The position numbers were made by a program, and so were the translations under genes. Under the pieces are notes generated by a model that was not told the DNA's origin, searched no databases, and saw nothing but the letters and a program-made list of their open reading frames with translations. A stretch of 64,000 nt of DNA, taken from assembly GCF_029866045.1 (NCBI RefSeq), contig NZ_JARXAB010000023.1:16927-80926 (forward strand), in the 5' to 3' direction. Source of the stretch: Ramlibacter sp. GTDB lineage: Bacteria > Pseudomonadota > Gammaproteobacteria > Burkholderiales > Burkholderiaceae_C. Each line of letters starts with the position of its first letter. The stretch's first letter is position 1. Below are positions 12,628 to 21,122 of the stretch, in pieces.

Positions 12628-15387
<2,760 letters not shown>

Positions 15388-15610: not shown

Positions 15611-17080
15611 ATGAGCGAGCAGCTCAATATCCAGGCGCCGGCACGACCTGCCAGCCTTGGATTGGCAGTGTCCGGTGGTATCCCCACCCGGGTCCTGCCC
15701 CTGCAGTCCCTTGCCCCGCGCAGTGCGGGTCCACAGTCAGCCGGTCTGCTCGGTGCAGTTCCCCACCCTGGCCTCTCCGAGGCCCTGCGCGCGCGCATTG
15801 CGCGAGATTTCATGCCCCGCTGGACCCACGAGTGGGGTGGGCGCTTCTTTGCCGAGGGGCGTGTGCCAGGCCCCCAGGCGGTACGTCTAGACGGCAACGA
15901 CTACCTGTCAATCGCTGGCCATCCCAAGATCGTCTCCGCCCAGATCGACGCCCTGCGTCGGCACGCCAGCTTCATGGTCCAGTCTGGCATCTTCCAGAAA
16001 ACCGATTCGCCGGGCCTGCGGCTGGAGGCGGATCTGGCGGCTTGGCTGCAGGCCCAGGGCGTGGTCCTCTGCCAGTCGGGCTATGCGGCCAACCTGGGTC
16101 TGCTGCAGGTGATCGCTGAGCCGGATACCCCGGTGTATATCGACGCCTTGGCGCATATGTCACTGTGGGAAGGCATTCGCGCCGCGCGTGCGCAGCCTCG
16201 GCCCTTCCGGCACAACCAGCCCGACCATCTGGCACGCTGCATCCGCGAGCATGGGCCGGGTGTGGTCGTGGTGGACGCTGTCTACAGCACGACCGGGGCT
16301 CTGTGCCCTCTGGAAGAAATGGTCCGTGTCGCTGAAGAGGGGGGCTGCATGATCGTGGTCGATGAGTCGCACTCGCTCGGCACGCATGGCCCACAGGGGC
16401 GCGGCCTGTGTGTCGGGCTGGGTCTGGCGCACCGGGTGCACTTCATCACCGCCAGCCTGGCCAAGGCATTTGCGGGGCGGGCGGGTTTCTTCACCGTCCC
16501 CGACGAGTTGCGGCCCTACCTGAGCCTCAACAGTTTCCCCAGTGTCTTCAGTTCCTGCCTCTTGCCCTACGAGGTGATTGGTCTGCAGGAGACGCTCGCC
16601 GTGGTGCAGGCTTCAGACGACGCTCGGCTTCGTTTACGGCAAATCACCCTTCGCCTGCGCCGCCACCTCACCCTCTTGGGCTACCCGGTGGGGCAGGGCA
16701 CCGAGCAGATCATTGCCCTGGAGACCGGCCGTGAAGCCGACACGCTGGCGCTACGTGACGCGCTTGAGGCGCAGGATATCTTTGGCGCCATGTTCTGTGC
16801 CCCGGCCACTGCGCGGGATCGGGCCATGGTGCGCCTGACCCTGACCGCGGGCCTCACGGACTCTGAGATCACGCGGGTGGAGTCCGTGCTGGCCGCCATG
16901 GCGCCTGAACTGCGCCCCTGGGATTGGCCGGCCGCCCGGCGCCAGCGCGCAGCGGAGGTCCGGGCGTCCGCGCTTGGGTCGGGTCTGGGGCGCGATCAGA
17001 GCGCCGTCGCCATGCCCCAGGCGGTGAATCCGAAGGCGGTGATGCCTGAGCCAGCTATGCCCGAGCCAGCGTTACGCTAG
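15611..17080 (+). CDS. CqsA/LqsA-like PLP-dependent alpha-oxoamine synthase (alpha-hydroxyketone autoinducer synthase)
   Basis: AGGAGG RBS region; RLDGNDYLSIAGHPKIV, FMVQSGIFQKTDSPGLRLEADLAAWLQAQGVVLCQSGYAANLGLLQ, VVDESHSLGTHGPQGRGL, FITASLAKAFAGRAGFF (presumed PLP lysine); beside a sensor kinase and response regulator. Confidence 0.85.
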   Translation: MSEQLNIQAPARPASLGLAVSGGIPTRVLPLQSLAPRSAGPQSAGLLGAVPHPGLSEALRARIARDFMPRWTHEWGGRFFAEGRVPGPQAVRLDGNDYLSIAGHPKIVSAQIDALRRHASFMVQSGIFQKTDSPGLRLEADLAAWLQAQGVVLCQSGYAANLGLLQVIAEPDTPVYIDALAHMSLWEGIRAARAQPRPFRHNQPDHLARCIREHGPGVVVVDAVYSTTGALCPLEEMVRVAEEGGCMIVVDESHSLGTHGPQGRGLCVGLGLAHRVHFITASLAKAFAGRAGFFTVPDELRPYLSLNSFPSVFSSCLLPYEVIGLQETLAVVQASDDARLRLRQITLRLRRHLTLLGYPVGQGTEQIIALETGREADTLALRDALEAQDIFGAMFCAPATARDRAMVRLTLTAGLTDSEITRVESVLAAMAPELRPWDWPAARRQRAAEVRASALGSGLGRDQSAVAMPQAVNPKAVMPEPAMPEPALR

Positions 17081-18075
17081 TCGCCCAAGCCCTGGATGCG
17101 GCGCGCGCCCTGCGCTGCGAGCCAGGATCGGTAGCCTTGTATTGGCTCTGGCAAGGCCTCTGTCGGTAAGGGAAACAGGGCTGCCAGTAGTTGGCCGCCC
17201 TCGTCGAGCGTAAAGGCCTGCTGGAACGGGCCCGGACCGTTCAAACCCAGGCTCTGGTGAACCTCCGGCGCCACGAGCACATCGCCCTGCTCCAAGAGCC
17301 CCCGATAGTCCCCTGGTAAGCCGCTCTCGGGCGCTGTGGTGAGCTCATGCACCCGCTGTGGCAGCGCCTCGCGCGCTTGCAGTTGCAGCCAGCTGGCACG
17401 GCCCTCGGCGTCCAGGCCCAGCACGCCAAAGGGGTCTCCGCACACCACATACTCCACCCACTCCCGGTCCATCAGCGCCTTGAGCGCGCGACCCGCACCG
17501 CCTTGGCGGAGCAGGGCCATCTGTTGCGGCCGCAGCGTGGCGCGCCAGATAGCGTCGTGCCGGTCGTGGCAATGGTCGGCCAGGCGCTCCAGGCTTCGCG
17601 CAAGCAGGCTGGCCATCTCGGCGGACTGTTTGGCGATGTACTGGTCGATCAGGCCGTGATTGAAGGCGTCGACCGCCACTCGCTCATCGGCCTGCCCCGT
17701 GAGTAGCACGCGCGCGCCTGGCCAGCCGGTGCGCAGCTGGCCGAACACTTCGAGTCCGCTCAGCCCCGGCATCATGTGGTCACTGACCCCGACATGCGTC
17801 AGACCATACCGTTGGGAATGCCGCGCCCAGTAGCGGAGCATCTGTGGGATGAGAGGGCGCCCCTGGCGCCAGAGGTCGACCACGGTCTCCTGTCGGTAGC
17901 AGTCGGCGGCCCAGTCCTTTTGCTCCTCCCGCATATGTTGCAAGCAGCCATGCGGCCGCAGGAAGAGGCGCACATGGCGCTCGGGCGGCAGCAGCAAGGC
18001 CATCAGGTCGAGGTAATCAGGGTCGTCGTCGAGCAGGAAGATGCTGCCGGGGCGTCGGAACAGGTGAAAGCTCAT
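17077..18075 (-). CDS. Response regulator, LqsR-like (receiver domain plus C-terminal region of unknown function)
   Basis: FLLDDDPDYLDLMALLLP, GVSDHMMPGLSGLEVFGQLR, ARVLLTGQADERVAVDAFNHGLIDQYIAKQ; ATGA overlap with upstream kinase. Confidence 0.8.
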   Translation of the reverse strand: MSFHLFRRPGSIFLLDDDPDYLDLMALLLPPERHVRLFLRPHGCLQHMREEQKDWAADCYRQETVVDLWRQGRPLIPQMLRYWARHSQRYGLTHVGVSDHMMPGLSGLEVFGQLRTGWPGARVLLTGQADERVAVDAFNHGLIDQYIAKQSAEMASLLARSLERLADHCHDRHDAIWRATLRPQQMALLRQGGAGRALKALMDREWVEYVVCGDPFGVLGLDAEGRASWLQLQAREALPQRVHELTTAPESGLPGDYRGLLEQGDVLVAPEVHQSLGLNGPGPFQQAFTLDEGGQLLAALFPLPTEALPEPIQGYRSWLAAQGARRIQGLGD

Positions 18076-19547
18076 ATGACTTTGTTCGGCGTGCTGGGGC
18101 GCATCTGGGTCGCCCGAGACTTCGCTGCGGTTGATTTGCGGGAGGCGGCCGAGACCGGCAGCTCGATGATGAAGGTGGCGCCTTCTCCGAGCGCCGACTC
18201 GACCCGCAGGCGGCCGCCGCCTCGGTGAACCACCCGCTGGCAAAAGGCCAGGCCCAGGCCGTGTCCGCTGGCATGGTGGCTGGAGACGAAGGGCTGGAAC
18301 AGGCGCGCCTGCAGATGCGGTGGGATGCCAATGCCGCGGTCGATGACCCGTATGCGGCCCCAGCGCGGGGAGGTTTGCTCAATTTCCACCCGCAGGTCGC
18401 CAGGCACAGGGCCTTCTGGCAGGCTGGCCAGGGCGCGCAACGCGTTGCGCAGGAGGTTGTCTACGACCTGGAGGAACAGGCTGCGCACAGTGTCGAATTC
18501 GAAGTCGCTGTGCACCACCAACTCGACACATTGGCGCTCACGTTCATGGCGGAAGGGGTGTGACGCCATGGCTTCCCGCAGCAGGCAGGCGGCGCTCACA
18601 CTCTCGGTGGCTGGTGGCAGCCGGAGCAGGCGTGCATTGGTGATTTGGGTGTCGATTTGCCGGTGCATATTGCGCACCAGGTTGAGTAGCCGATGGGCCA
18701 GGTGTTCGACCTGCTCACGGCGCAGGGGCGTTGCGGTGCGGGCCTCCTGCCGCATGGCCTCACCGATGAGATTCATCGTGGCCAGCGGGGTGCGCAGCTC
18801 ATGGGCCATGATGCCCATGGTGTCCAACGCCTGCTTGAGTTGTTCCCGCCGCAGGTTCGAGGTGGACATGCCGAGCATCAGCCCGGTGGCGGCGCAAAAC
18901 ACAAAGACCACCGCCTGCGCCTGGACGGCTTCGGTGGGCAGCGACAGCGTGTCGGGGCCGAACCCGGCGAACAGCATCCAGCCGGCCGGTAGCCCGGTCA
19001 CGAGGCCCAGGCTCGCCAGCCGCCAGTCGGTCAGGTTGAGATAGATGAGCAGCATTGCCGCGGCGGAGGCAAACCAGACCGCATTGCCGCCGTTGCACAG
19101 GTACATCCAGGTGAAGTAGACGGGCAAGGTGATCCAGAAGATCACCGACGTGACCAAGGTGGCGGTTCGTGTGGGCGGGCAATGAGAAAGGGCTGGTGTG
19201 ACGATGAGCACCAGGCCGAGGCCGCTCATCGCGAGACGCTGCCAGGGGTCGTCATAGGGCTGGGGCGTCCAGCGCGTCCACAGAAGGTGGAACAGGGGGT
19301 GCCCTACCGCTGTGAAAAGGCCGAGTGCCCGTACCCGGCGGGGCAGTGGGCTCTGCAGCGGGTCGAACAGCGGCGCCAGCAGGGTTTCACCCCACGAGGA
19401 GAACCATGAGGAGACCCTCGACGCGAACCATGCAGCAGCCCGGCCAATGGCCCATGAAGCCGGGATACCTGACCACCCCTGTCGCCAGGACCTGGCCGTC
19501 GTGCGCGAGCGGGTTGATGCCATCGTTTGTAGTGCTATCGTTCTCAT
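18072..19547 (-). CDS. CqsS/LqsS-like membrane sensor histidine kinase
   Basis: Multi-TM N-terminus with GHPLFHLLWTRWTPQPYDD; MAHELRTPLATMNLIGEAMRQ H-box; DNLLRNALRAL N-box; DRGIGIPPHLQARLFQPFVSS; GHGLGLAFCQRVVHRGGGRL. Start uncertain (19547 or 19523). Confidence 0.82.
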   Translation of the reverse strand: MRTIALQTMASTRSRTTARSWRQGWSGIPASWAIGRAAAWFASRVSSWFSSWGETLLAPLFDPLQSPLPRRVRALGLFTAVGHPLFHLLWTRWTPQPYDDPWQRLAMSGLGLVLIVTPALSHCPPTRTATLVTSVIFWITLPVYFTWMYLCNGGNAVWFASAAAMLLIYLNLTDWRLASLGLVTGLPAGWMLFAGFGPDTLSLPTEAVQAQAVVFVFCAATGLMLGMSTSNLRREQLKQALDTMGIMAHELRTPLATMNLIGEAMRQEARTATPLRREQVEHLAHRLLNLVRNMHRQIDTQITNARLLRLPPATESVSAACLLREAMASHPFRHERERQCVELVVHSDFEFDTVRSLFLQVVDNLLRNALRALASLPEGPVPGDLRVEIEQTSPRWGRIRVIDRGIGIPPHLQARLFQPFVSSHHASGHGLGLAFCQRVVHRGGGRLRVESALGEGATFIIELPVSAASRKSTAAKSRATQMRPSTPNKVI

Positions 19548-19571
19548 TTTCGAGGACGTACGACAAACACC

Positions 19572-20240
19572 ATGGGAGATCCTGTTAACTTCTACAGCGT
19601 GTGCCTGGACGGCATCCTGAGCGACTGGCTGGCCACCTTGCGCGAATTTGCCGTCGAGGCGGTGGTTGTGCTCGGGCCCGACCCGCTGGGCGGCGCCGAC
19701 GACCGCCAGGTCGTTTGTGTCCATCCGCCGATGGCGTCTGACACCGCCAGCGCGCTGGCGGCCAGCACTGATTTCAGCGGCGCCTGGCGCGACTCCGACG
19801 CACCCTTGGTGGCCTGGCAGCACATCGCCCGGGGCGCGGCCCTGCACGACACCGGCTGGCGCGGCCTGGCGCGCGCCCATGGCTTTCAGTCCATGGTTCG
19901 AGTGGAGTTTCCCTTGCCGGCACAGCGCTCCTTCGAATGCTTCATGTTCAGCCCGCGCGAGCTGATCGACCGCACCGAGGCAGCGCTGCTGGCCTGGTCG
20001 ACCCTGAGCGTATGGCCCCTGGTACGCCGCTCCATCGCCGACGAACGCTCGGCGCTGAGCCCGCGTGAACGCCAATGCCTCTCGCTGGCCTTTGACGGCC
20101 ACACCGCCCGGGAGAGCGCCTCGCGCCTGTCTTGCACCGAGCGAACGGTCAATTACCACCTGGCCAATGCCATGGCTAAGCTCAAGGTGGAGAACAAGCT
20201 GGCGGCAATCCAGCGTGCAAGCTGGATCGGTGCCATCTGA
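19572..20240 (+). CDS. LuxR-family transcriptional regulator (autoinducer-binding-like N-terminus, C-terminal HTH)
   Basis: LSPRERQCLSLAFDGHTARESASRLSCTERTVNYHLANAMAKLKVENKLAAI; upstream GWRGLARAHGFQSMVRVEFPLP resembles LuxR ligand-domain core. Confidence 0.85.
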   Translation: MGDPVNFYSVCLDGILSDWLATLREFAVEAVVVLGPDPLGGADDRQVVCVHPPMASDTASALAASTDFSGAWRDSDAPLVAWQHIARGAALHDTGWRGLARAHGFQSMVRVEFPLPAQRSFECFMFSPRELIDRTEAALLAWSTLSVWPLVRRSIADERSALSPRERQCLSLAFDGHTARESASRLSCTERTVNYHLANAMAKLKVENKLAAIQRASWIGAI

Positions 20241-20339: not shown

Positions 20340-21122
20340 ATGCTGCTTGCCATCGACGTGGGGAACACGCGCCTGAAGTGGGCGCTCTATCCATACGCCC
20401 GTCCCGGTGCCCAGCCCCTTGCCCAGGGCGCCGAATTTCTCGAAAACATCGACAAGCTCGCGGAGGGCCCCTGGCGCGAGCTGCCGGCGCCCCGGCAGAT
20501 GATCGGATGCACCGTAGCGGCCGACGCCATCAAGCAACGGGTCCAGGAGCAGATCGAAGAACTGTGGGATTTGGCGCCGCGCTGGGTCCATGCCAATGCG
20601 GCGGAGGCGGGGCTGGTCAACGGCTACGACCACCCTGCCCGCTTGGGGTCCGACCGCTGGGTCGCCATGATCGGCGGCTGGCATCGCATGCGTGCTGCTT
20701 GCGCCGAAGGTCCGGCTCGGCCGCTGGTGGTCGTCATGGTGGGTACCGCGGTCACCGTGGAGGCGGTCAGTCCCGAGGGCCACTTCCTGGGCGGCCTGAT
20801 CCTTCCGGGGCACGGCATCATGCTGCGCGCGCTGGAGTCTGGCACCGCCGGCCTGCACGTGCCCACCGGCGAGGTGCGGCCCTTTCCCACCAATACCAGC
20901 GACGCGCTCACCAGCGGCGGCACCTATGCGATCGCCGGCGCCATCGAGCGCATGGTGATGCACCAGCGCCAGCAGTTCGGGTTGGAGCCCCTGTGCTACA
21001 TGACTGGCGGCGCGGGCTGGAAGATGGCGCCGCATCTGACCATGCCTTTTGAGTTGGTCGACAGCCTCATCTTCGACGGCCTTTTGCAGGTGGCCCAAGC
21101 GCGGGCATTGCTACCGGCTTGA
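20340..21122 (+). CDS. coaX: Type III pantothenate kinase
   Basis: [55 protein letters not shown]. Confidence 0.93.

Follow-up and report, generated by a model that had tools for sequence, protein, structure and literature searches.

Alpha-hydroxyketone signalling has been described in several Betaproteobacteria. The jqsA/jqsS/jqsR system of Janthinobacterium has a deletion phenotype that can be complemented by cqsA and lqsA (PMC3566124), and jqs is present across Janthinobacterium and Duganella (PMC5080296). Clusters of lqs genes are found across Betaproteobacteria and PhcX belongs to the LqsR family (PMC10653808, which also cites a study of the Lqs system of Cupriavidus taiwanensis). Early reports exist for Ralstonia eutropha, Burkholderia xenovorans and Polaromonas (PMC3376566). 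Since the jqs loci, the betaproteobacterial lqs loci and these early reports are published, the synthase-sensor-regulator core is already known in Betaproteobacteria, and the core module of the locus reported here is not new. A description of a LuxR partner of LqsA or LqsR in Comamonadaceae was not found in the open-licence literature. The original prediction of a signalling module with an added LuxR gene holds for the family membership of the proteins and for the absence of the LuxR gene from the descriptions found, while the novelty that it implied for the core is contradicted by the published betaproteobacterial loci.

The locus belongs to a freshwater bacterium of the Comamonadaceae. It lies in a window, the whole 64,000-nucleotide stretch of DNA that was analysed, between secA (about 12628..15387, + strand) and coaX (about 20340..21122, + strand), which lie outside the system and have dS values like those of other flanking genes. 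All four of its genes are intact. A CqsA/LqsA/JqsA-type PLP-dependent autoinducer synthase (15611..17080, + strand, 489 aa) is convergent with an LqsR/PhcX-type response regulator (17077..18075, − strand, 332 aa), the stops of the two genes having 4 nt in common. The regulator is coupled by an ATGA start/stop overlap to a CqsS/LqsS-type membrane sensor histidine kinase (18072..19523, − strand, 483 aa), whose start is separated by 48 bp from that of a LuxR-type transcription factor gene on the opposite strand (19572..20240, + strand), the conserved divergent partner of the locus. The convergent, coupled and divergent arrangement originally predicted agrees with these coordinates. The nearest named relative, Ramlibacter metagenome assembly L039, has a synthase 97% identical and a locus identical in layout. 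A gene-neighbourhood survey of the kind suggested together with the prediction covered Burkholderiaceae. Of 31 genomes with the synthase, 28 keep the order and strands synthase(+), regulator(−), kinase(−), LuxR(+), and this recurrence indicates that the arrangement is not due to chance.

The synthase scored 526 bits against NF005526, the NCBIfam model for alpha-hydroxyketone autoinducer synthases (cut-off 428), and stayed below the cut-offs of the sister-family models, with 207 bits for BioF (cut-off 426), 176 for KBL (460), 155 for ALAS (339) and 188 for SPT (500). Its best solved structure in the PDB was V. cholerae CqsA (E 6e-96, 325 bits), with the next family at 131 bits. A tree was built from 40 synthase homologues together with V. 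cholerae CqsA and five BioF-like proteins of related bacteria; in it the synthases, V. cholerae CqsA included, form one group with 100/100 support, apart from the BioF-like proteins. The enzyme is thus of CqsA/LqsA type, as had been proposed, and the grouping with BioF, KBL, ALAS or SPT that had been named as counting against the proposal was seen neither in the family scores nor in the PDB match nor in the tree. The PLP lysine (K236 equivalent) is invariant in the synthase alignment. Among the nine positions named for the hydrophobic pocket of V. cholerae CqsA (PMC3285556), five are kept (F79, F264, C346, P348 and A349), while H30, V32, F257 and I263 are replaced in the window synthase; with four of nine positions replaced, its acyl chain preference may differ from that of V. 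cholerae CqsA. Residues beyond about 440 form an unconserved tail, and the C-terminal stretch encoded at window:16930-17080 contains MPxPA-like repeats that are shared with the 97% identical relative and conserved nowhere else.

The kinase is above the Pfam cut-off for HATPase_c and just below that for HisKA (22.6 vs 26.9 bits), and H241, N356 and the G boxes are invariant across 31 homologues. Six membrane helices are predicted, and a low-confidence model (pLDDT 57) places helices at residues 61-85, 93-112, 119-143, 148-165, 167-187 and from 197 onward. The original prediction had likened the kinase N-terminus to the CqsS sensor. An alignment of 14 sequences, in which Vibrio CqsS was represented by proteins encoded on plasmids of Vibrio sp. 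THAF190c and V. campbellii (L105, L106), confirms the likeness with nine positions invariant with Vibrio CqsS (G74, P76, W82, Q88, R96, F137, N144, S153 and F209). In the same alignment W150-S153 of the window kinase fits the W104/S107 pair of V. cholerae CqsS, which reads the signal head group (PMC3376566). The position that reads tail length appears to be a leucine, small as in Legionella LqsS, although the weak alignment makes this suggestive only. By these sequence features the kinase is a CqsS/LqsS-type sensor, and ketone binding is predicted for it.

The regulator consists of a receiver and a C-terminal domain. Its best PDB match, over residues 9-265, is 6sy9 (E 1.6e-14), a 361-residue chain titled 'Response regulator' that we take to be Legionella LqsR. 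The phospho-acceptor aligns with D128 of this chain, which we infer to be D108 of LqsR (PMC3376566) displaced by a 20-residue tag, and D16, D17, D99, T126 and K149 are invariant across 37 homologues. Beyond the receiver, a Pfam search found no other domain, a recognised DNA-binding domain included, and no output domain is known for the C-terminal part of LqsR-type proteins (PMC3376566). The 6sy9 match and the intact receiver residues identify the protein as LqsR-type.

The LuxR-type protein has a GerE/LuxR HTH match (E 3e-15; PF00196, 56 bits against a cut-off of 23.5), and its N-terminal half gave no match to the autoinducer-binding domain PF03472 even at E 10. Its model (pLDDT 83) had the AHL receptors TraR, QscR, SdiA and RhlR as top Foldseek matches, with E down to 1e-10; these matches run along the length of the protein, with TM-scores of only 0.34-0.53 and high rmsd. 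Despite the resemblance of the model, we do not file the protein as an AHL receptor, because PF03472 is unmatched. Upstream of the gene lies an extended -10-like element, TGCTATCGT (19533..19541, + strand), with one mismatch to TGnTATTGT. With up to one mismatch, this conserved motif precedes the LuxR start codon (ATG) by 26-43 bp at 27 of 36 loci; on the coding strand it lies upstream of the synthase in 1 of 30 and of the regulator in 0 of 36. The luxR-type gene has a promoter-like element of its own. Elsewhere in the window's own genome (L111, contig C3, 4431-4832), a 325-aa open frame has a weak LuxI-type match (PF00765, 26 bits) and is possibly an acyltransferase-like relative, not an AHL synthase.

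A synthase above the NF005526 cut-off was found in 31 of 301 Burkholderiaceae genomes. An orthologue of the LuxR-type gene occupies the same divergent position in 28 of these, the window's own genome included, and the other orthologues are 52-71% identical to that of the window. The three synthase genomes without LuxR in place are G010, with kinase and regulator on another contig; G094, a genome only 55% complete with a synthase 42% identical on a short contig; and G130, with a synthase 44% identical and the order synthase-kinase-regulator. Six further genomes have an intact LuxR orthologue and no synthase. The adjacent kinase is also absent from the locus in all six, LuxR has an LqsR-type regulator as its immediate divergent neighbour in each (27-168 bp apart), and the secA-coaX setting is kept in two. 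This pairing and the 28 synthase loci confirm the LuxR gene as a member of the locus. The regulator is in the same locus for all 34 intact LuxR orthologues of the 301 genomes, and in about nine genomes an LqsR-type regulator occurs and LuxR does not; LuxR therefore depends on the regulator, not the reverse. Fisher tests, in which phylogeny was ignored, linked LuxR to the synthase at p about 1e-30 and to the regulator at p about 1e-35. No LuxR orthologue was found in six synthase genomes of other families, in a search run without a positive control genome, and given this absence and that in G010, G094 and G130, LuxR is not a general requirement of such signalling. A search for the orthologue beyond Burkholderiaceae, in 250 genomes of the order, gave matches only in the window's own genome and in one of its family.

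Several loci without a synthase have features of their own. Two large plasmids, of Polaromonas sp. P1-6 (L100) and P. naphthalenivorans CJ2 (pPNAP01, L101), carry an LqsR-type regulator and LuxR and no synthase, and on the former the kinase gene is broken into two frames. The synthase-less genomes G273 (C1:37329-38570) and G056 (C71:8928-10118) contain different kinases, whose frames are about 870-935 aa long and match over the sensor region at 29-31% identity; these could feed the orphan regulator.

The divergence of the four proteins was compared across 26 loci by partial Mantel correlations of distances with CoaX as control, which removes shared ancestry only partly. The strongest correlations between proteins were 0.66 for kinase-receiver, 0.55 for regulator-LuxR and 0.54 for synthase-sensor; synthase-LuxR stood at 0.06. 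Synthase-sensor exceeded synthase-receiver and receiver-LuxR exceeded sensor-LuxR in 99-100% of subsamples, a ranking opposite to that predicted by gene order. Co-divergence thus tracks the expected signalling chain and not gene order, and LuxR follows the regulator, not the synthase. Signal synthesis and sensing on the one side and the regulator and LuxR on the other behave as two evolutionary sub-units.

From these sequence comparisons, we consider it likely that the locus is a four-gene quorum-sensing module of alpha-hydroxyketone type (CAI-1/LAI-1/JAI-1-type) with output via the LuxR-type protein. By analogy with its family, the synthase would convert an acyl-CoA and an aminobutyrate-type donor to a 3-amino or 3-hydroxy alkan-4-one, and the conserved CqsS sensor positions suggest that the six-helix kinase would sense this ketone signal in the membrane. 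The LqsR-type regulator shares a transcription unit with the kinase, which would control its phosphorylation, as gene coupling, intact residues and co-divergence suggest. The conserved pairing and joint retention of the regulator and LuxR point to the final step, in which the regulator, with no recognised DNA-binding domain, would act through the divergently encoded LuxR-type DNA-binding protein. We read the latter as the partner through which the regulator would exert its transcriptional output, on the grounds of conserved neighbourhood and co-divergence only; both could equally arise if the two genes are simply adjacent and share one control region.

Other readings have to be weighed against this module. 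Fold type I oxoamine synthases have much sequence in common, and with merely five of the nine CqsA pocket positions kept and H30, V32, F257 and I263 replaced, the synthase might yield another, biosynthetic alpha-oxoamine product like those of BioF, KBL or SPT, so that the locus would not be a quorum-sensing one; the NF005526 score, the V. cholerae CqsA structure match and the tree rule out membership of those families, and together with the constant linkage to a CqsS-type sensor they make this reading highly improbable. LuxR solos with ketone-like ligands exist, and the structural matches to TraR, QscR, SdiA and RhlR (E down to 1e-10) could mean that the LuxR-type protein works in the cytoplasm as an additional receptor, for the same signal or an AHL, parallel to the kinase and not downstream of the regulator. 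The low TM-scores, the high rmsd and the unmatched PF03472 speak against such a receptor, as do the conservation of LuxR (98% identical to that of the relative L040, against about 75% for the synthase), its divergence, which does not track the synthase, and its presence in the six genomes without synthase and adjacent kinase; we regard it as unlikely. A local role, for example in the expression of the kinase and regulator genes, has somewhat more in its favour: divergent regulators of this kind often control the neighbouring operon, and the LuxR gene shares a short region with the kinase and has its own promoter-like element. Such a role would leave the quorum output to a regulator in which no DNA-binding domain is recognised, and LuxR remains with that regulator in loci that lack synthase and kinase, which renders a purely local function rather doubtful.

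The pattern of divergence between close relatives is a separate matter. Between the window and L040, SecA, CoaX and LuxR are 94%, 96% and 98% identical at the protein level, and synthase, regulator and kinase 73-75% (aligned codons). Between the secA end and the start of luxR (L040:7900-12700 and window:15400-19600), DNA identity drops to about 74%, from about 90%. The dS is 0.94-1.36 in the synthase, regulator and kinase genes, with intervals that do not overlap those of most flanking genes, vs 0.41-0.60 in eight flanking genes; for LuxR it is 0.79, and the 5' quarter of luxR is as divergent as the cassette. Because the cassette dS is doubled relative to the flanks, these values suggest an allelic replacement of the synthase-regulator-kinase cassette with a breakpoint inside luxR, and a second pair (L053/L055) exhibits a milder form of the same divergence. 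Fast evolution in place could also be considered, as dN is raised along with dS and the three genes evolve faster in other pairs too; given the largely separate dS intervals and an identity that drops at the secA end and rises again within luxR, it is the less convincing explanation, although one with some weight. We propose only tentatively, and as a possibility short of probable, that the LuxR-type protein is the dedicated output transcription factor of LqsR-type regulators and also that synthase and sensor form an exchangeable, pherotype-like cassette, swapped or lost while regulator and LuxR are kept.

The occurrence of LuxR beside the regulator, even where synthase and sensor are missing, points to an unrecognised output arm of alpha-hydroxyketone-type signalling. 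The LuxR-type partner is a concrete candidate for how LqsR-type regulators reach genes in one large bacterial group. In addition, close relatives carry divergent alleles of the cassette, which suggests that an alpha-hydroxyketone system can come in types of different signal specificity; we know of no earlier description of such types.

The Vibrio cqsA-cqsS system (CAI-1) shares with this locus a synthase core about 47% identical, based on the Vibrio plasmid records, and the invariant sensor residues, but its CqsS is longer (681 aa vs 483 aa in the window). Vibrio CqsS signals via the shared LuxU/LuxO relay, and the cqsA-cqsS locus in the plasmid records has no match to an LqsR-type regulator or a LuxR partner. 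Legionella pneumophila lqsA-lqsR-lqsS (LAI-1) likewise has a separate synthase, an LqsR-type regulator without known output domain and a six-helix kinase; hdeD lies between lqsS and lqsR (PMC3376566), whereas in the window the corresponding two genes overlap each other, and there is also a LuxR gene. Among Ralstonia PhcX and betaproteobacterial lqs loci, the LqsR-family regulator is sometimes retained after loss of lqsA (PMC10653808), a parallel to the regulator-LuxR pairs; PhcX became attached to the phc system, and the text consulted mentions no LuxR partner. Janthinobacterium jqsA-jqsS-jqsR (JAI-1) likewise combines a betaproteobacterial CqsA/LqsA-type synthase, an adjacent kinase and an LqsR-like regulator (PMC3566124, PMC5080296). 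Its reported order is synthase, kinase, regulator, with no LuxR-type gene described, whereas the order in the window is synthase, regulator, kinase, LuxR.
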